Shown here one piece after another: positions 1,765 through 36,123 of a stretch of DNA of 41,017 bases. A program made the position numbers and the translations under genes. Below the pieces are notes generated by a model. That model did not search any database. It was not told the DNA's origin and was given only the letters and a program-made list of their open reading frames with translations. Within the stretch, counting starts at the first letter, position 1. Every line of letters starts with the position of its first letter. Source of the stretch: a virus; IMG/VR virus record IMGVR_UViG_3300044691_000460, positions 1 through 41,017 of that record; one strand, 5' to 3'.

Positions 1765-2628
1765 ATGAACATTTACGAAACAATCACCGATCGCATCATC
1801 GCAACCCTCGAAACAGGCGTCATCCCATGGCGAAAGGAGTGGAAGACAGACGGGTGCGGAGCATTGCCCGTCAACTTCTCCACCAAAAAACCGTATCGCG
1901 GAATAAACGTTCTAACCCTCCTCTGCTCTGGCTACTCCTCCCGCTATTGGATGACCTACAAACAGGCGCAGGAGCTCGGCGGCCAGGTGCGCAAGGGTGA
2001 GAAGGCGTCGCCCGTTGTCTTTTGGAAATTCAGCAAACAATCCGACAAAAAAACTGGCGAAGAGAAGGAGTTCGCCTTCGCCAAACAATACAGCGTTTTC
2101 AATCTCGACCAGATTGATGGCTTGCAACCTGCTCTACCGTTCGATGCTCCACCATTCGATGTCATCGATGCGGCGGCCGCGATCGCCGACGCCTATATGG
2201 TGAGCGCGAATCGTCCAACGCTCTCGCACGGCGGCGGTAAGGCCTTCTACCAGCCCGGCGCCGATCACGTCCAGATGCCCCTGCAGGCTGCATTCTCTAA
2301 TTCTGCCAGCTATTACTCCACTCTGTTCCATGAGTTCGCGCATAGCACCGGGCATCAATCGCGTCTCGACCGCAAGGAGCTGTCTAAGAAGGCTGCATTC
2401 GGCGATGAGGACTATAGCAAGGAGGAGCTCACCGCAGAATTTACCGCAGCGTTCCTTTGCGCTGAGGCTGGATGCGCGAATGACGCTCTGCTCACCAACT
2501 CGGCCGCATACATTCAGGGCTGGATGAGATCGCTCAAGAATGACAAAACGCTGGCGATCTCTGCGGCACAGAAGGCGCAACATGCTGCCGACTATGTCGC
2601 CCAACGCACCGCACCTGCAACTCTTTAA
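1765..2628 (+). CDS. ArdC-like antirestriction protein with zincin metallopeptidase domain
   Basis: This 287-residue protein has the two-part architecture of ArdC-type proteins. The N-terminal single-strand-DNA-binding domain (about 1-125) includes the start MNIYETITDRII, the PWRK motif (21-24), YRGIN (44-48) and GEKASPVVFWKF (78-89). The C-terminal metallopeptidase has the zinc motif HEFAH (189-193) and a downstream EELTAEF segment (220-226) likely to give the third ligand. In plasmids and phages such proteins protect incoming DNA or inactivate host factors. AAAGGAGA precedes the ATG by about 8 bases. Next to a clamp-loader-like gene it fits an establishment or early role. Confidence 0.85.
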   Translation: MNIYETITDRIIATLETGVIPWRKEWKTDGCGALPVNFSTKKPYRGINVLTLLCSGYSSRYWMTYKQAQELGGQVRKGEKASPVVFWKFSKQSDKKTGEEKEFAFAKQYSVFNLDQIDGLQPALPFDAPPFDVIDAAAAIADAYMVSANRPTLSHGGGKAFYQPGADHVQMPLQAAFSNSASYYSTLFHEFAHSTGHQSRLDRKELSKKAAFGDEDYSKEELTAEFTAAFLCAEAGCANDALLTNSAAYIQGWMRSLKNDKTLAISAAQKAQHAADYVAQRTAPATL

Positions 2629-9273: not shown

Positions 9274-10050
9274 TTAGGCTCCAGCTAGCTGCGAGAGAGC
9301 GGCCTGAGCTTTAGTCCACGCTTCAAGGACGGCTGTGATCGCTGTATTCATCGTCGCCGCGCTTCCTCCTCCTGCCTTGTGATAGTTCTGCTCAGCATGG
9401 TCTGCGACGTTGAGGGCTTTGTTGAGCGACTCCATCGCCAGCCGCTGGCTGCTGGACACCTGGATCTTTCCGCTCAGGATGTCGGCCGAGATTGAGGCGG
9501 CGAAGTCGTGCGCCGGCCGCAGCACCTTGAAGGCGTTGGCATCGGCTGAGTCAACGGCTCCGCTGGGCAACGCCGGAGCAGGACCGGGAGTCGCGGCGGT
9601 CGGACTATGCACGCATCCGGCCAGGCCGATCGATGCCGACGCCAATACCAGCAGCAGAACGAGGTTCTTGCGATCCTTTTGGACGAGTGGCGTCTGGCCC
9701 GTGGGCGGGGCTTTGTAATCTCGTCCAAAGGGATCAACCTCAACCTTCGGGGCATCGAGCGCATTAGCCGCCGATCGGACGGTGCCATGGATCCCGGCCG
9801 CGCTCGCGGCGGTCAGCATCAGACTCGCCCAGAATGTCGGGGTTGCGAGATCGTCCGGCTTGGCCACAGAGATGATGCCCACTGCAGTAAGCGCGAAGTT
9901 GATGGCGACGGCATACTTGCCGCCGATCGCCGGGAAGTAGCGCTTGAGGATGGTCAGCAGCACATAGACCGAACCGGCAATCGTGACCAGTTTGACAGGC
10001 AGTGCGGACCAGAATGTGGCCCAGATGATTGCTGCAAGAATGACGTGCAT
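9274..10050 (-). CDS. putative holin-like multi-span protein fused to a lipoprotein-like domain
   Basis: This 258-residue protein has hydrophobic segments at about 3-35, 46-63 and 72-88. A polar linker (95-128) follows, then a second lipoprotein-like signal: basic KDRKNL, hydrophobic LLLVLASASIG and lipobox LAGC (143-146). The C-terminal 110 residues are Ala/Ser-rich and helical. The lipobox is internal, yet no ATG, GTG or TTG with a ribosome-binding site precedes it, so one polypeptide is predicted. The order next to the endolysin suggests lysis (holin plus outer-spanin-like function). AAGGAG lies 10 bases before the start. Confidence 0.55.
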   Translation of the reverse strand: MHVILAAIIWATFWSALPVKLVTIAGSVYVLLTILKRYFPAIGGKYAVAINFALTAVGIISVAKPDDLATPTFWASLMLTAASAAGIHGTVRSAANALDAPKVEVDPFGRDYKAPPTGQTPLVQKDRKNLVLLLVLASASIGLAGCVHSPTAATPGPAPALPSGAVDSADANAFKVLRPAHDFAASISADILSGKIQVSSSQRLAMESLNKALNVADHAEQNYHKAGGGSAATMNTAITAVLEAWTKAQAALSQLAGA

Positions 10051-11070: not shown

Positions 11071-11430
11071 CTACTTCTTTTCAGCTTCTTTTTTATGCGA
11101 CTCCGGATCCTTAGGCAGTGGCATGCAGATTCCCATGGGACTAATTCCGCTGCAACCATGCTTGGCGTTCGTAGATCCTAAAAGTTGATTGAAAGCATCT
11201 TCCGCTAAGGCTACTTTCTTGGCCGCGTCTGCTGCATTTTGCCGCGCAACAAGAACTTCAATTTCGGAACGAAGCAGCGCTTGATACTCTTCGGCGGGCA
11301 AGGCAACAGTTTCCGACTTCGCGGCGGTCGTGGCGGTGGGGACGACGGGGGCCTGCTGAGTAGGGGTCTGTTGAGCGAGAGCGGGGAAGAGTGCCGAATA
11401 GAGGATGAGGCCGTACCAGAATGTCTTCAT
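11071..11430 (-). CDS. secreted helical protein, spanin-like by position
   Basis: This 119-residue protein begins with a signal peptide (MKTFWYGLILYSALFPALAQQ, cleavage probably after ALA). A Thr/Ala/Pro linker follows, then a helical coiled-coil-like segment (about 48-85) and a Cys/Pro-rich end with two cysteines (HGCSG, GICM). GGAG lies 5 bases before the ATG. It could bridge or remodel the envelope during lysis, but no family is recognised. Confidence 0.5.
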   Translation of the reverse strand: MKTFWYGLILYSALFPALAQQTPTQQAPVVPTATTAAKSETVALPAEEYQALLRSEIEVLVARQNAADAAKKVALAEDAFNQLLGSTNAKHGCSGISPMGICMPLPKDPESHKKEAEKK

Positions 11431-11452: not shown

Positions 11453-13570
11453 TCACTTGCCCCCGCACCAATAGGAGATTTGATACTGATTGTTGGCTAT
11501 TAATGCAGTTCCCATTGCATTTAGGGTCATAGAACTTGTGTTATTTCCGGGATCTCCAACCGGAACTAAAGTAAGACCAGTATTTTCATTGATCGCATTT
11601 CCGGTAACACAATTGGGGATATTTGTTCTAGTGAAGGGAAAAGTTACAGTAACCAGAGATCCTGTTGTTGGTGGTGCCGTTCCAGCCGTGAAAATGAGTC
11701 TCCCACTCACGGAATCGCACACTGTAGCGCAACCGGCGGTCCCACCCAGCGTTGCTCCTGTACCAGCCGCAGGTCCTAGCGATATGGTGGCTGCTCCTGT
11801 TCCAGTATGAGAACTAAATGAACCAATTCCGCCATTGTTGGTGATCGACCAAGTGGGTCCGCCAGTGGTTGCCCCAGTCATGCTGGTTCCAGAGAGTGAG
11901 ATGCGCCCGCTCCCCGTTAGAGCTGAACCAATAAACATAGTGCCCCCACTAGCATCTATGCTGACCATGAACGCGTTGCTCGCAGAAAATCCATTGATAG
12001 TACCGGGAGTGATATTCCACCCTTGAATAGGTCCGTTGGTTACATCCACCTCATTGGTGAAGGTATTCTTTTGCGACCAGGTGTTGGTGGTGCTTTGCCG
12101 GGGTACGGCTACCCCATTGACGGACAGTATGCCGGGAACGTCTACCCCGGTGGGGGAAACTGTCATTGCCAAAGTGTGATTTGGGGTGAACAGGATGTTT
12201 TCCCCCGAAGCAGCGGTGCTCAACACTAGAGGTCCAGCGGTTCCTACTCCAGCTTCAAAGACGGAAGAGAAGCCAGGCCAAGCAGCAATCGCTGGACTAG
12301 AACCTTCCTGAAAGATTTGTGATTGTGCCGTCCCGTTCTGGAGAATAAATTCTCCTCCTACTCCGGTAGAGGAAGAAGAAGAAAAAATCGGAACCTTATA
12401 CGTCATAGACGTTCCATTCATTATCCCTACGGTGACGCGGTTGACTTGGGACACAATGGACTTCCCTGGCCCGAAGGCGTCGAGGTATAGATCCGCTCCA
12501 GTGGCAGTACCATCCCCTCCAGCTTCAAGCACTGCGGAATTGTTAGTCCACGAAGGTACGCTGGCATTGATGGCCGATCCGTTTTGAGTAAATGATGATT
12601 GGGTTGTTCCATCGGCGATCACTAGCAACTTCCCGCCTATCGTAGTCGAAGAGACGGCAGAGCTAACAATTCCAGTCGCAGAAACACTGGTCGGCGTAAT
12701 CGCCCCGAGCGTGAAAGTCAAAACTGGATTTGCTCCACCGGATGAACTCCCCGATACACCCGCGTTTGTTCCTACACCTATTGTCTGGACCTTGGTGTCG
12801 AGCTGCGTTTGTACCGAACTTGTAGGATCAAGAAAGCCAAAGATGATGGGCGTGACTCCATTGACAGTCTTATTAGTTAGCGTCTGCGTATCGGAGATAC
12901 CGACGAGCGGGCTGGAAGGTGCGGCGAATGATGTTGCCCAGGCCGAACCCGTTGATACCGGGATCCCAGCGGGTGGGAAGACCATACCACCGGAAGCTCC
13001 TCCATCTGCAAGTCCATAGCCTCCTCCGGCCGCATCATTGATCCAAACGGCGACGTGACCAACTACAGGTCGAATCGCGGTTGTGTCAGTGAAGTTGACA
13101 ATGGCCTGGCTGTCTCCAGTGCTGGATAGGATTAGGTGTCCTCCTCCGGAAGTCAGCTGCAAAGCCGGCATTGTCTGTGCATTGGTGAAGGTGTTTGGTG
13201 TGCTTAGGCGTGGGAAGTCGGTTTGAATGGTGTACTGAGATCCATTCCAGGTATAACTATTCTGCCTGCCGCCGCGCTCATCGGTGATGAATCCCGTCGT
13301 GCATCCTCCTGTGACTGCCGCGATCGTATCGCTGGGCGCTGCTGCTGCAGGGATCACAACTCGCGCTCCAGTCATAGAGCAGGCCTTCGTGATGCCGCTC
13401 TGAATCGTCGGATAGAATCCCCCTGGTTGGCCGATATATAGATTCGTGTTCATCTGCGGTGTTGTGAACGCGCCCATCTGCTGCTGCGCTTCGAGGGCGG
13501 CTTCGAAATACCATCCAAAGACTGTAGCCAGCCCTGCGATCGCGAACCAATAACCGATTTTTCTGAGCAT
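11453..13570 (-). CDS. large fibre-like protein with N-terminal signal/anchor
   Basis: This protein has about 705 residues and is rich in Gly, Ser and Thr, with repeated TFTN and NTFTNAQTMPAL/KNTFTNEVDVTNG segments and beta-rich repeats typical of phage tail fibres. The C-terminal 110 residues (GPAAGTGATLGGTAG, TVTFPFTRTNIPNCV, YQISYWCGG) look like a folded receptor-binding tip. Unusually, residues 1-30 (MLRKIGYWFAIAGLATVFGWYFEAALEAQ) look like a signal peptide or anchor. GGAGAAGTG precedes the ATG at 13570. Confidence 0.65.
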   Translation of the reverse strand: MLRKIGYWFAIAGLATVFGWYFEAALEAQQQMGAFTTPQMNTNLYIGQPGGFYPTIQSGITKACSMTGARVVIPAAAAPSDTIAAVTGGCTTGFITDERGGRQNSYTWNGSQYTIQTDFPRLSTPNTFTNAQTMPALQLTSGGGHLILSSTGDSQAIVNFTDTTAIRPVVGHVAVWINDAAGGGYGLADGGASGGMVFPPAGIPVSTGSAWATSFAAPSSPLVGISDTQTLTNKTVNGVTPIIFGFLDPTSSVQTQLDTKVQTIGVGTNAGVSGSSSGGANPVLTFTLGAITPTSVSATGIVSSAVSSTTIGGKLLVIADGTTQSSFTQNGSAINASVPSWTNNSAVLEAGGDGTATGADLYLDAFGPGKSIVSQVNRVTVGIMNGTSMTYKVPIFSSSSSTGVGGEFILQNGTAQSQIFQEGSSPAIAAWPGFSSVFEAGVGTAGPLVLSTAASGENILFTPNHTLAMTVSPTGVDVPGILSVNGVAVPRQSTTNTWSQKNTFTNEVDVTNGPIQGWNITPGTINGFSASNAFMVSIDASGGTMFIGSALTGSGRISLSGTSMTGATTGGPTWSITNNGGIGSFSSHTGTGAATISLGPAAGTGATLGGTAGCATVCDSVSGRLIFTAGTAPPTTGSLVTVTFPFTRTNIPNCVTGNAINENTGLTLVPVGDPGNNTSSMTLNAMGTALIANNQYQISYWCGGK

Positions 13571-27306: not shown

Positions 27307-27732
27307 CTATACGGTTACTGCTGCGGGTGCTTCGACGAGGACCTGGCCAGTGGTTCCCTGAGACATCGGGGATCCGTGGATGCTGCCTGTGGCCGCGCGG
27401 CGGTCTACCTCTTGCCACAGCTCTTCATTCGAGAGCAAAGCAAGTTGTTCCGGGGTCGGCTTCTGTATTGCGCCTTCGAGCAACGCCATAGGAGCTTCGG
27501 GAGCTGCGGGTTCCACATGCAGCCCATGCCCCTTCAGCTTCTCGACGATCGCGTTGAGGCGGTCAGAAATGCTGGATGACTGGGTCACACCTGCCGTTGG
27601 AATCTCGACGGTGTCGCCCTTGTCGCCTTTCTCGCCCTTTTCGCCCTTTTCGCCCTTTTCGCCGGGATCGCCCTTGTCGCCCTTGGTGGTGGACACTCCG
27701 GAGACTGCTCCTGCTACCTCTTCACCGTCCAT
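27307..27732 (-). CDS. collagen-like repeat protein
   Basis: This 141-residue protein has eight uninterrupted Gly-X-Y triplets (about 18-41: GDKGDPGEKG, then GEKGEKGEKGDKGDT), a bacterial/phage collagen-like segment. It is followed by helical residues (DRLNAIVEKLKGHG, QLALLSNEELWQEVDRRA). It would trimerise. Such segments serve as stalks or fibres on capsids or tails. AAGGAGAG precedes the ATG. The stretch of 82 bases upstream contains the CRISPR-repeat-like sequence. Confidence 0.7.
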   Translation of the reverse strand: MDGEEVAGAVSGVSTTKGDKGDPGEKGEKGEKGEKGDKGDTVEIPTAGVTQSSSISDRLNAIVEKLKGHGLHVEPAAPEAPMALLEGAIQKPTPEQLALLSNEELWQEVDRRAATGSIHGSPMSQGTTGQVLVEAPAAVTV

Positions 27733-27777
27733 ATTGACTCTCCTTGTACTTCCTGTTTTTCGACATCATTCGAGGCC

Positions 27778-27810
27778 GTTTCAATCCACGCTCCCTTATG
27801 GGGAGCGAAC
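27778..27810 (-). CRISPR. solitary type I-C-like CRISPR repeat (no array)
   Basis: Read on the minus strand, the 33 bases have GTT, then a 7-bp stem CGCTCCC/GGGAGCG with loop CATAA, then TGGATTGAAAC. This is the architecture of type I-C repeats (about 32 nt): GC hairpin followed by the 11-base tail that becomes the crRNA 5' handle. The length here is 33, with one extra T near the 5' end. No second repeat is found within the window, so it is not an array. It lies in the gap between two late genes, in the sense orientation of the transcript. A mimic that occupies Cas proteins or a remnant captured from a host array are the leading readings. Confidence 0.8.
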
Positions 27811-27814
27811 TCGG

Positions 27815-28372
27815 TTAGGCGGCGGTGTTCTTACGCGCGGCCTTGGGCTTGCGAGATGCGCGCGGGGCCGTGGTCTCTTCCTCTTCTTCCTCTTCATAGC
27901 GCCGCTGGGGAGCTCGCTGGATGAGGAAGAGCTGGGTTCCGCTGGGCTCGTTGTCGGTCGGCCACTCCAGCGCCTTGCGGTAGTTGCGCGCGGCGACGGC
28001 ATAGGCTTCGGGATCGCTCTTCTTCAGCGCGATCGGCGGGTTGCTCCAGATGGCTCCGCACCGCTGGCAGAGCACGATTACCTCGCCGACAGGCATGGTG
28101 TGCTGGATGACCGCGTAATTGCTGTCGGTGCCGCGATCGAGGCCGCCCTTGTTCCTGCCGCCCTTCTTATGCTTGCAGTTGGCCTCGCGGATGATGCGCT
28201 GCCGTTCGTTCTCAGCCAGGTCGCGCTGCTGGCTCTCAAGCTGGATGCGGCGGCTTTGCTTGCGTTGGTTGATCTCCTGCAGCTGCTCTCTCTGGAGTTC
28301 CAGCTGGACGCGCTTCATCTCCAGATCGATCGTTGCGGATTCGTTCAATAGTTCGTCTGTGGTCTGCCCCAT
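27815..28372 (-). CDS. coiled-coil protein with zinc-ribbon and basic tail
   Basis: In this 185-residue protein, residues about 10-62 form a charged coiled coil (LEMKRVQLELQREQLQEI). A CKHKKGG...CQRCG zinc-binding pair follows (about 66-107). The C-terminus has a run of acidic residues (EEEEEEE) and then a Lys/Arg/Ala-rich tail. GGGAGATATG precedes the ATG. Placed between the collagen-like and the capsid genes, it is probably a head-associated protein. Confidence 0.6.
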   Translation of the reverse strand: MGQTTDELLNESATIDLEMKRVQLELQREQLQEINQRKQSRRIQLESQQRDLAENERQRIIREANCKHKKGGRNKGGLDRGTDSNYAVIQHTMPVGEVIVLCQRCGAIWSNPPIALKKSDPEAYAVAARNYRKALEWPTDNEPSGTQLFLIQRAPQRRYEEEEEEETTAPRASRKPKAARKNTAA

Positions 28373-31123: not shown

Positions 31124-33253
31124 TTAGGCCTCCATTCCTTCACGCATCTCTTGACGCTCCTGTTGGCGCAGCACATAGGCCGCCGCCTGTTCGCCGGACT
31201 GCAACATCATCTTGCTGGCCAGAGATGCCTCATGATTCTGGTCAATCTCGGCCGTCTTCGCCTGGTGCTTCGCCCCCACCACTGCGATATCGCCCTGGAC
31301 CTTCTGCAGCCCTGGGTTGTTCGACTGGAACCGCGCATATTCCTCCTTCGTCATCGGGCGGATGAGCTCGCGGCGGTCCTTCCACTCGCTGACCTCCATG
31401 AACATGGCAAAGAGCAGTTTGGCATCGACGGCATAGCCCATCGCGTTGAGCTGCGCCACCAGGGCCGGATTCTCGATGATCTGAATCATCAGCGGGAGGG
31501 CCTGGGCCATCGCTTTCTTCGCCGCCAGCTTCGCGCCGGCCAGGACCTCGAACTTGTCGTTAGAGTTGAGGAAGTCTTCCTCGTCCAGCTCGAAGGCATC
31601 CCCCAGCTCCTCGCCGAGTACTTCGCGGATCTCGGCGATCGGCATCCGCTCTTTGACCATGTCATCGAGCATCTCGAGGAAGGGAATGAAGACGCCGCGG
31701 ACGAAGCGGCCGACCGGTCCCTCGATCTTCTGCGCGTTCGCGGTGATGATGCCGCCTGCCCCGGTAGCGGTCCGCGCTGCGCTCGATCCGCCCTTTCCGG
31801 GCAGGCTGCCCTGGGCGAAGGCCTCGTCGGCTCCGGTGGTCGATTGGCTCGACTGGCGGGCATCCTGCAGGAGCGGGAAAACCTCGCCGGGAACGCGCGG
31901 CTGCTCGATCAGCCCGAACGCATCGCGGACGTTTCCGCCTTTCGGAACATCCACGTCCACAATCCCCGCCAATCGGGTGCGGATCTGCTGCGAGGGCACG
32001 TTGGCTCCCCGGTCTCGCGCGTAGGACGGGTTGAGCGCGAAGCTGAGAATATCCAGAGCGCCATCGACCAGGCCTTTTTCGATGCGCTGATCGCTGCCGG
32101 CCAGTCGGCCGACTCCAATTCCGTATCCGGCTCCGGGGATGTTCCAGAAGTTTCCCGAGAAGAAACAGTGCCGCCCCATGCCGTGTCGCTCGTTGCGGAT
32201 GACGACAACGTGATCGTCGTCGGTGCGCAAGATGGTGCGGACATAGGTGTCATCCCAACGCTCGAGCATCTCGATCGGATGGTCGGTAAAATCATCGGTC
32301 GTGATCTCATTGCGGCCGGCCGCGTGGTGGATCGCAGTATTGTTGGTCTGCTGCTCTTCGAAGGTAGACGGCGGGGTGGCGTTCTGATCGTGCGTGAAGA
32401 AGTACTCAATGAGCTCATCCTCGCTCGGGATGCTATAGCCCTGCACCTCGCCGTCCTTCGAGGTCGGAGCTCCTTTGATCGGCCGCAGCTTGTCCAGGTC
32501 CTTGAAGGTGGGATAGGTTTGGTGGATGACGAACTTGGCCTTGTCCAGCCGGTTCGCGTGCCGCCAGCCAGGATCGACATAGACCTGGCCAAGTGGGATG
32601 AACTCAAAGAAGGGACGGTTGGTCGTCACCTCACTGTCGATGACTTCAAACTCGTCGCTCTCCGCCGTATGTACCGCAACATCCTTGTCGACGAAAGGCA
32701 TCTTGACGCGGACGGGAGCTTGCTTCCGCACCTGGATCTTGACCTTCTTCGTCTCTGTGACCCATCCTCCCTTGCAGATGCACGTTCCGCTGTTGACCAT
32801 GCCCTCGATCGCCAACACACACTCATCCTGAAAGTTGATTCCATCCAGCAGCGCGCCATACAGGGCTATCTTTGCGAAGGCAGTTTGTTGGCTCTGCTTC
32901 GGCCGCGGACGGATGAGAAAGGGCGGATTCTCATAGAACAGGCCTGCCTCGATCATCGGGGCGAGGGTATTGACCTGTTTGGCGACGGTGAAGCGTGAGA
33001 CGTTGGCGCGGGATACGACGGAGTTTTCGAAATTGGTGGATCCGCGCGGCGACTGGTAGAGGGTATCGGCCTCGTTCCAGTGCAGCGGCCACTGTTTTTC
33101 TTGCTGGAAGGCCTGCGCGCGGGTCATATCGCCCACTACCAGCTTGGCGGTGCCTTCGTCGGTATACTTCGGCGCGAGTTTCGGCCCCTGCAGGATGACT
33201 TCGGAGCGCTCGATGGTGCCTGTGGAGCTGACTGCCCCTGTTATTTCACTCAT
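31124..33253 (-). CDS. portal protein
   Basis: This 709-residue protein fits the podovirus-type portal: large size, position after the terminase and the pattern FEFIPLGQVYVDPGWRHANRLDKAKFVIHQTY (about 210-245). A beta-rich middle and a helical C-terminal region with KELIRPMTKEEYARFQSNN-like charged helices follow. It would form the dodecameric ring for DNA packaging and exit. ATGA overlap with terminase indicates coupled expression. Confidence 0.8.
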   Translation of the reverse strand: MSEITGAVSSTGTIERSEVILQGPKLAPKYTDEGTAKLVVGDMTRAQAFQQEKQWPLHWNEADTLYQSPRGSTNFENSVVSRANVSRFTVAKQVNTLAPMIEAGLFYENPPFLIRPRPKQSQQTAFAKIALYGALLDGINFQDECVLAIEGMVNSGTCICKGGWVTETKKVKIQVRKQAPVRVKMPFVDKDVAVHTAESDEFEVIDSEVTTNRPFFEFIPLGQVYVDPGWRHANRLDKAKFVIHQTYPTFKDLDKLRPIKGAPTSKDGEVQGYSIPSEDELIEYFFTHDQNATPPSTFEEQQTNNTAIHHAAGRNEITTDDFTDHPIEMLERWDDTYVRTILRTDDDHVVVIRNERHGMGRHCFFSGNFWNIPGAGYGIGVGRLAGSDQRIEKGLVDGALDILSFALNPSYARDRGANVPSQQIRTRLAGIVDVDVPKGGNVRDAFGLIEQPRVPGEVFPLLQDARQSSQSTTGADEAFAQGSLPGKGGSSAARTATGAGGIITANAQKIEGPVGRFVRGVFIPFLEMLDDMVKERMPIAEIREVLGEELGDAFELDEEDFLNSNDKFEVLAGAKLAAKKAMAQALPLMIQIIENPALVAQLNAMGYAVDAKLLFAMFMEVSEWKDRRELIRPMTKEEYARFQSNNPGLQKVQGDIAVVGAKHQAKTAEIDQNHEASLASKMMLQSGEQAAAYVLRQQERQEMREGMEA

Positions 33254-34926
33254 CCTGATAGCCCCGGCATGACGTCATCCAACCCATAGGGGTTGGTTTG
33301 CAGTATCGCTTCCTCTTCGTAGTCTTCAACGGGCGCAGGCGGGGCCTCCTGCTCTGCATAGCGGCCCACCCCATACACCCGATCGTGCATGTCGCGCTCG
33401 CGCGCCCTCTCGAACTCCTCGTCATCGTCATCGTCGGCCGCGGCGGCGCTTTTGATCGACTTCGGCAGGGCCTCACAGATGCGGGCGATGCACTCGACGA
33501 TCTCGTTTTCTTCGACCATGCCGAAGTTGGTAAATTGCCGCATGAGATCCGCCATGGGAACAATCGCGTCCGAGAGCCGCACCCGGCCGGTGGCGATCAG
33601 CGGCTGGATGGTTTTGAGGCGGAGATCCCGCGCGGCTTCGTCCTGGTCGTACTCGATCCACTTCAATGCGACCTTATAGCCCACCTCGAGCGCATAGTTG
33701 TGGATGTGGTGCTCGACGTGGCGCGCGCCAGGCGAATCGATGATCTGCACCGTGCGGACATCATGCTTCTTCGCCAGCTCCACCACCTTGCGGGCCTGCG
33801 CGGACGGATTGTAGATCCCCCGCAACACATCGATGATGAACATCGATCCGAAGGCCTGCCGACCCACCGCCGCGCCGGCGTACTTCATGGAGGCATCCCC
33901 GGACTTGCTGAACCGCCATACGATCTTCGCCGGTCCCTGTACCGGGTCCTCGTCCTCCTCGACCTTCGCGGCGTTCATCTCCTCCACTGGGAAAATGACC
34001 TCTTTTCCGCCGAAAGCATCGTTCATGTACTGCGTCATGAAGGATGCATAGTCGTCTTCGAACGACTCCTTCAAAAACTCGTAACTCAGCAGGCTCGGGA
34101 ACGTCAAAGTACACTCTTCAGGTTCGGGGAAACACTCTGAGGTGAGCCGATCTCCGCTCAATAGCTCCAATGCCGGACGGCAAAGGATCTTGATCTTGCC
34201 TGGTCGCGCCTTCGCGATGTCATCCCCATAGGCATCGAAGGGGTCGTAGCGCGTTCCGGCCGTGTCGCGGAAGCAGCCCGGCATGAGCATCTTGCGGTTG
34301 ATGTGCCGGTTCTTCTTCGTCTTCTCGATGCCGGCCGGAGTCTCCGAGTTGCGGTTGTCGACGATGTCGTCTTCCTTCAACCATTCGAAGTGCCAGCCCG
34401 ACATCGCGGACTCCATCGATCCCGACATCAGCGTGTCGTCTTTGCGCCCAGTCTGACGGTGGGGTGCGCAGTAACTTCCCACCCTCACCGCCGATGGAAT
34501 GATGCAAAACTCTGGGAATAGCTCTTGAAACCCGCTCCCGCTCGCGCCCTTGGGCTTAACAAAGTGCTGCGTGACCTCACCGACGAAGGCCTGCGCCAAT
34601 TTGAGGGATCCGCAGAGCAATAAACCCGCGTTCTCGGGGAAGCAGATGATCCACTGGACGCAATCGCCCATGTTGATGGTCGATTTGTAGGTTCCCCGGG
34701 GGTCCAGATGCAGGCGATTCTTGATGGTGTCCTGGTGTTCGATCGGGATGCGGGGATCTTTCTGCACGTAATGATCGGTGACGGCGCGATGGTCCGCCTC
34801 GGTGAGTTTGTTGTAGCCCAGGAGCTCGTAACAGAGCCAGAAAAGGTCCGTCTGCGCTCGGAGGCGCAGTTCGTCCCGATAGGCTCGGTCCTCGCGTACT
34901 CGCGCGAGATTGATGGTTGCTGACAT
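33250..34926 (-). CDS. terminase large subunit
   Basis: In this 558-residue protein the ATPase has the P-loop-like DPRGTYKST (75-83), a variant seen in T7-type terminases, and a Walker B-like FEWLKEDDIVD (180-190). The C-terminal RNase-H-like nuclease shows DASMKYAGAAVG (about 341-352), IIDVLRG and the later acidic D in TVQIIDSPGARHVEHHI. An acidic run (DDDDDEE) precedes the end. It drives DNA into the prohead and cuts concatemers. No small subunit could be identified with confidence. Confidence 0.85.
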   Translation of the reverse strand: MSATINLARVREDRAYRDELRLRAQTDLFWLCYELLGYNKLTEADHRAVTDHYVQKDPRIPIEHQDTIKNRLHLDPRGTYKSTINMGDCVQWIICFPENAGLLLCGSLKLAQAFVGEVTQHFVKPKGASGSGFQELFPEFCIIPSAVRVGSYCAPHRQTGRKDDTLMSGSMESAMSGWHFEWLKEDDIVDNRNSETPAGIEKTKKNRHINRKMLMPGCFRDTAGTRYDPFDAYGDDIAKARPGKIKILCRPALELLSGDRLTSECFPEPEECTLTFPSLLSYEFLKESFEDDYASFMTQYMNDAFGGKEVIFPVEEMNAAKVEEDEDPVQGPAKIVWRFSKSGDASMKYAGAAVGRQAFGSMFIIDVLRGIYNPSAQARKVVELAKKHDVRTVQIIDSPGARHVEHHIHNYALEVGYKVALKWIEYDQDEAARDLRLKTIQPLIATGRVRLSDAIVPMADLMRQFTNFGMVEENEIVECIARICEALPKSIKSAAAADDDDDEEFERARERDMHDRVYGVGRYAEQEAPPAPVEDYEEEAILQTNPYGLDDVMPGLSG

Positions 34927-36030: not shown

Positions 36031-36123
36031 TGGAGCGGGAGGGTTCGAACCTCCGACCTCCTCGCGACCGTCACCTTGCGGCAGAGTTTCGCGGGGTGCT
36101 CTAACCACCTGAGCTACTACTCC
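36031..36123 (-). tRNA. tRNA-like sequence with enlarged anticodon arm (possible pseudo-tRNA)
   Basis: On the minus strand there is an acceptor-like 5' GGAGUAG, UA, a D-stem GCUC/GAGC with a GGUGGUUA-type loop, and a T-arm GGAGG-UUCGAAC-CCUCC. The acceptor 3' strand CCGCUCC gives five pairs, one wobble and one mismatch, and shares one base with the T-stem. Between D- and T-arms, CCCCG (27-31) could pair with CGAGG (one mismatch) followed by the canonical variable loop AGGUC. The loop between them is about 27 bases instead of 7 and has no clear U33. The anticodon cannot be read. It may be a tRNA-like element or a decayed tRNA rather than a functional one. Confidence 0.5.

Follow-up and report, generated by a model that had tools for sequence, protein, structure and literature searches.

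Genes and features around the element

The window, i.e., the complete stretch of 41,017 nucleotides analyzed here, is a 41-kb virus record in which the genes for the terminase, the portal, the major head protein and the tail region lie on the minus strand, with portal and terminase at the start of the late gene block. Within this block a short element is found in the 82-base gap (27733-27814) between the genes of a coiled-coil protein and a collagen-like protein, in sense orientation to both of these virion-region genes. The features of the locus are as follows.

27307..27732, minus strand: downstream gene, encoding a collagen-like protein of 141 aa with GxK/GxP repeats; ORF with weak PHROG tail-fibre and Pfam Collagen matches
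27733..27777, minus strand: 45-nt leader of the collagen-like gene; ribosome-binding-like AAGGAG at 27740-27745
27778..27810, minus strand: solitary CRISPR repeat assigned to type I-C, 33 nt with a 32-nt core at 27778-27809; from direct sequence, covariance model and BLAST
27778..27788, minus strand: 11-nt tail TGGATTGAAAC, corresponding to the 5′ handle of type I-C crRNAs; its 5′ edge is the predicted site of the Cas5d cut
27789..27807, minus strand: hairpin CGCTCCC-CATAA-GGGAGCG, perfect 7-bp stem and 5-nt loop CATAA; from RNA folding
27815..28372, minus strand: upstream gene, encoding a coiled-coil protein of 185 aa that has a CxxC pair; ORF with syntenic orthologues in the related contigs L002 and L003
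28466..29653, minus strand: major head protein (phrog_1357), 42% identical to that of phage Tunturi_3
31124-33253, minus strand: portal (phrog_1216), with a relative in Tunturi_3
33250-34926, minus strand: terminase large subunit (phrog_38), with a relative in Tunturi_3

Upstream of the terminase block there is a tRNA gene (36031-36123, minus strand; Rfam, 35 bits). An ArdC-type anti-restriction gene with an ArdcN domain and a zincin-like metallopeptidase is located 25 kb from the element (1765-2628, plus strand), so that the phage also has a protein counter-defence gene.

The minus-strand sequence of the element (27778-27810) is GTTCGCTCCCCATAAGGGAGCGTGGATTGAAAC, and the repeat pattern to which it corresponds is (G/T)TCGCTCCCCATAAGGGAGCGTGGATTGAAAC, position 1 being either base. 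It begins 4 nt past the stop codon of the coiled-coil ORF and is separated by 45 nt from the start of the collagen-like ORF; the ORFs overlapping it are shadow frames only and the element is intergenic. In the predicted fold of the 82-nt gap, exactly the repeat stem is formed in both the minimum free energy and the centroid structure, as would be expected of the hairpin of an RNA anti-CRISPR, while the stability of the whole gap is not exceptional (z -1.4). The abutting tail TGGATTGAAAC is identical to the invariant 3′ end of 13 out of 13 distinct aligned array repeats. From the established activity of Cas5d, a cut is predicted 5′ of this handle. Type I-C systems are without Cas6 and the processing is done by Cas5 (PMC7913775). 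A first-pass annotation, made from the letters of the sequence, had described a 7-bp CGCTCCC/GGGAGCG stem followed by an 11-base tail, placed in sense orientation in an 82-base gap between a coiled-coil and a collagen-like gene, and this description is correct in sequence, coordinates, strand and neighboring ORFs. Neither a sigma-70-like promoter near the element nor a terminator at the site was predicted; likewise no acr family was recognized beside the element, both neighbors being without a match in PADLOC, which is not a dedicated Acr library.

No second repeat was found in the 100-bp flanks, where the best ungapped identity is 42% upstream and 39% downstream, and in the entire 41-kb record the pattern matched only once, at the element itself. 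Ten window proteins scanned with PADLOC contained no cas family and the window proteins scanned with PHROGs and Pfam no cas protein, some small ORFs lying outside these scans, and an Rfam scan had no match at the element, returning only the tRNA. The earlier statements that a second repeat and a cas gene are absent are thus borne out, the latter among the proteins scanned. For the class of solitary repeat units (SRUs) we used the SRUFinder thresholds of at least 90% identity, at least 90% coverage and at least 41.1 bits, taking the values from PMC10651486 and not running the program itself. The best natural match of the element reaches 93.5% identity over 31 of 32 nt and 46.1-48.2 bits; being in addition intergenic, with no repeat in the flanking 100 bp, no array and no cas among the proteins scanned, the element is an SRU by the applicable SRUFinder-type criteria.

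Relationship to type I-C repeats and to the likely host

When two mismatches are allowed, the tail alone occurs at 4 sites against 2.8 expected. As the tail alone is not rare, the weight of the evidence lies on the combination of the tail with the abutting stem. Given the base composition, chance would produce the exact stem with its tail about 1e-10 times on both strands of 41 kb; a 7-bp stem of any sequence, with a loop of 3-8 nt and abutting TGGATTGAAAC, has an expectation of about 4e-6. We also aligned 13 distinct 32-mers from true arrays of the genome collection and the viral contigs; the covariance model derived from the alignment took the stem as its structure. In these array repeats the stem is 100% paired, with a compensatory change at the single variable pair. 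The model matched the element end to end with 41 bits and an E-value of 5.7e-9, the second-best site having an E-value of 0.9.

The nearest natural repeat found by BLAST is GTCGCTCCCCATGCGGGAGCGTGGATTGAAAC, identical at 29 of 31 aligned positions. It occurs in arrays of Paenibacillus, Saccharibacillus, sulfate-reducing Desulfobacterales, Kuenenia, a planctomycete and an acidobacterium, and in the acidobacterium cas5c and cas8c adjoin the array. Compared with this repeat, which is also the commonest, the element differs at 3 of 32 positions, namely position 1 and two loop positions, and the stem and the handle are intact. Three random changes over 32 positions would all fall outside stem and handle with a probability of 0.007; this sparing is only suggestive, as the ancestral repeat is not known. 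An exact 31- or 32-mer of the element has no match in the viral and genome collections. The stem together with the GTGGATTGAAAC-type 3′ end is as in arrays adjoining cas5c, cas7c and cas8c.

At the DNA level the locus has no similarity to named phages. The only named and isolated relative of the head protein and the portal, and the best one of the terminase, is Tunturiibacter phage Tunturi_3 (PP885686.1), whose head protein, portal and terminase are 42%, 38% and 27% identical to those of the window phage; it differs by its genome of 97.6 kb, in which no I-C repeat-like site was found. Since this only isolated relative infects Tunturiibacter (Acidobacteriota), the window phage, a soil phage, probably has an acidobacterial host.

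Among 396 sampled Acidobacteriota genomes 13 have I-C-type repeats, three of them within three mismatches of the element. In these three genomes (G001, G203 and G373) cas5c and cas8c lie beside the closest arrays, in the latter two together with cas7c, and the best E-values of the Cas5c, Cas8c and Cas7c matches are all below 1e-50 (Cas7c tested in two). Their array repeats agree with the element in stem, handle and length and have 2-3 mismatches to it within the 31-nt pattern: position 1 is T in the phage copy where the arrays have G, and its loop CATAA stands in place of CATGC, CACGC or CCTGC. The array repeats are accompanied by spacers and cas genes, whereas the phage copy is solitary. In the comparison with arrays of candidate hosts that had been proposed in the first-pass annotation, close, cas-flanked repeats were found in three genomes and the exact 32-mer in no genome of the collection. 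The spacers of the I-C arrays matched this phage group at chance level only (best 27 of 35 nt, a G203 spacer to contig L177). Single I-C repeats lying off arrays were also observed in acidobacterial genomes (G220:C157:789, G022:C76:38330, G218:C1:640209, G274:C146:8727 and G114:C255:800, listed as loci L249, L250, L252, L254 and L261); these may sit in prophages.

The array-derived model, the near-identical repeats in arrays flanked by cas5c, cas7c and cas8c and the presence of such systems in the likely host phylum strongly support the assignment of the element as a solitary type I-C repeat. The initial observation of a single type I-C-like repeat, for which coincidence had been called unlikely, is confirmed by the model match, by a natural array repeat differing at only three positions and by the chance expectations.

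Related phages and other solitary repeats

L002 and L003, the closest viral contigs, have their genes in the same order as the window, and their head proteins are 83% and 76% identical. Neither has the element in the same gap or anywhere else in its 40-kb record, up to 3 mismatches having been allowed in the search. The leaders in these two contigs give a rough alignment to the 45-nt leader of the collagen-like gene. A wider search for relatives yielded 80 loci. Conservation in related phages, for which the first-pass annotation had suggested looking, was not found: an intact I-C repeat is absent from all 47 related records examined, the two nearest being searched with up to three mismatches and the other 45 with the exact degenerate pattern only. 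The covariance model likewise gave nothing above chance on stretches of the head-protein relatives and Tunturi_3. Because L002 and L003 are without the element and none was found in the 47 related records, it was either gained in the lineage of the window phage or lost in the others, and if gained, the gain would be recent. The two syntenic relatives thereby offer a natural plus/minus comparison of the gain. The region from the coiled-coil gene to the gene of a conserved MGSSTV-type protein is a variable spot with differing small genes in the relatives (L002 11424-11475, L003 11819-11886, and L171-L178).

Solitary repeats of this kind are a known class. A total of 2,103 viral solitary repeats has been catalogued with SRUFinder, and SRUs are the class from which the RNA anti-CRISPRs (Racrs) were defined; the tested members inhibit CRISPR, and among nine tested candidates one, RacrIC1, is of type I-C (PMC10651486). 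The idea has been reviewed in PMC11656645. Like the viral SRUs the element consists of one full-length repeat in an intergenic position, with no cas found, no neighboring repeat and a match above the thresholds, and nothing essential differs. With the general I-C pattern we obtained 103 matching stretches in viral contigs. Sixty-eight of these are solitary copies clear of contig ends and arrays, and 52 of the 68 lie outside ORFs of at least 150 aa, compared with 31% of random positions (Fisher p 5e-14); under a stricter gene model, sense orientation to both neighbors is the commonest arrangement of the intergenic copies (21 of 43), all of these counts including some near-duplicate contigs.

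In some phage contigs solitary I-C repeats are present as two or three dispersed copies of identical sequence, the flanks being mostly unrelated and several copies lying directly 5′ of ribosome-binding sites (L010 and L013, IMGVR_UViG_3300031673_000079, at 9274-9303, 11331-11360 and 11928-11957; also L020/L069, L048 and L065). These raise the question whether they are multi-copy decoys or dispersed Cas5d cut sites.

RacrIC1, from a Bifidobacterium pseudocatenulatum prophage, is a validated type I-C RNA anti-CRISPR and is expressed inside an operon, as a bicistronic unit with the acr gene upstream of it (Camara-Wilpert et al. 2023, PMC10651486). Like our element it is a type I-C repeat standing alone in a phage genome, intergenic, in operon sense and 3′ of a protein gene. 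RacrIC1 follows an acrIC5 homologue at a distance of 11 nt and has a mapped transcription start and tested activity, whereas our candidate element has virion-region neighbors, no recognized acr and no predicted promoter, and belongs to a different phage and probably to a different host phylum. Racrs are often found near acr genes, which are enriched in the published set but not required (PMC10651486).

Possible function of the solitary repeat

We consider it probable that the element is a solitary type I-C repeat unit acting as an RNA anti-CRISPR, i.e., a candidate Racr, a role already put forward in the first-pass annotation, whose interpretation is supported in part. We infer the following course of events. 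Read-through of the late operon would place the repeat on an mRNA. If the host has a type I-C system, Cas5d (Cas5c) would bind the hairpin and cut behind the stem, and the 11-nt handle would head an RNA that continues into the phage leader and not into a spacer delimited by another repeat. This non-productive RNA would tie up Cas5d and probably also Cas7, fewer working Cascade complexes would be formed and the phage would benefit. The match to the natural-repeat model with intact stem and handle, the near-identical repeats in real arrays, beside cas genes in three acidobacterial genomes, and the acidobacterial host of the only isolated relative are consistent with such a function, as are the solitary, intergenic state above the SRUFinder thresholds, the frequent and mostly intergenic occurrence of solitary I-C repeats in viral contigs and the position of validated RacrIC1, likewise in an operon and 3′ of a protein gene (PMC10651486). 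Against it stand the lack of a sigma-70-like promoter nearby and of a recognized acr family beside the element, the absence from all 47 related records searched and hence of conservation across phages, the lack of a spacer found against this phage group and the occurrence of such repeats in only 13 of the 396 sampled host-phylum genomes. Possibly the late-operon position also means expression after the CRISPR attack on the incoming DNA has started.

As no conservation across phages is seen, a smaller but real chance has to be given to a neutral host repeat which was captured by illegitimate recombination and is functionless debris, still undecayed. A possibly recent arrival, as the absence from every relative examined allows, the site at a spot of variable gene content among the relatives and the missing promoter of its own would fit this. 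Debris would, however, hardly be expected to comprise exactly one repeat length without flanking array, spacer or leader sequence, nor to keep stem and handle unchanged, with the differences from natural repeats confined to position 1 and the loop; moreover phage genomes are compact, the solitary I-C class is strongly intergenic and tested solitary repeats inhibit CRISPR (PMC10651486). A remnant of a CRISPR mini-array directed against competing phages, with the downstream 45 nt as spacer, is very improbable and largely refuted: some viruses do have mini-arrays (PMC11656645), but there is no second repeat within 100 bp, and the 45 nt hold the ribosome-binding site of the next gene and gave no protospacer-like match in the relatives, the named phages or the viral contigs. 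At least two repeats and a spacer matching other viruses characterize a mini-array, and here one repeat and no spacer match were found.

Intergenic inverted repeats are common, yet a coincidental hairpin, terminator or mRNA-stability element with no link to CRISPR is hardly credible here, given that the 32-mer matches natural I-C repeats over its whole length; a terminator would in addition call for a U-run 3′ of the stem, which is missing, and the terminator scan made no call. We reject the chance hairpin on the chance expectation and the E-value of the model. It is also improbable that the element is a Cas5d-dependent processing or regulatory site, at which the host endonuclease would cleave the late mRNA in the gap from the coiled-coil to the collagen-like gene and shift the ratio of their products. 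The sense orientation, the close spacing to the stop codon and the next start and the location of the ribosome-binding site downstream of the predicted cut would suit such a site, and so would the dispersed copies in other phages, some just 5′ of ribosome-binding sites; but phage expression would then hinge on a patchily present host defence system, the relatives manage without the element, and the same placement is explained by Racr action. It is conceivable, if a long shot, that solitary phage I-C repeats are decoys and at the same time Cas5d-dependent cut sites in operon leaders, so that the immune endonuclease of the host processes phage mRNA. If this were true, the extended form would be seen in the phages whose two or three dispersed copies are identical.

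The class has already been described in 2023, and the element of the window phage is an additional, good candidate for a Racr. It adds a clean candidate type I-C Racr from a phage group whose sole isolated relative infects Acidobacteriota, a phylum with little-studied phages, and it shows that solitary I-C repeats occur inside virion operons and not only beside acr genes.
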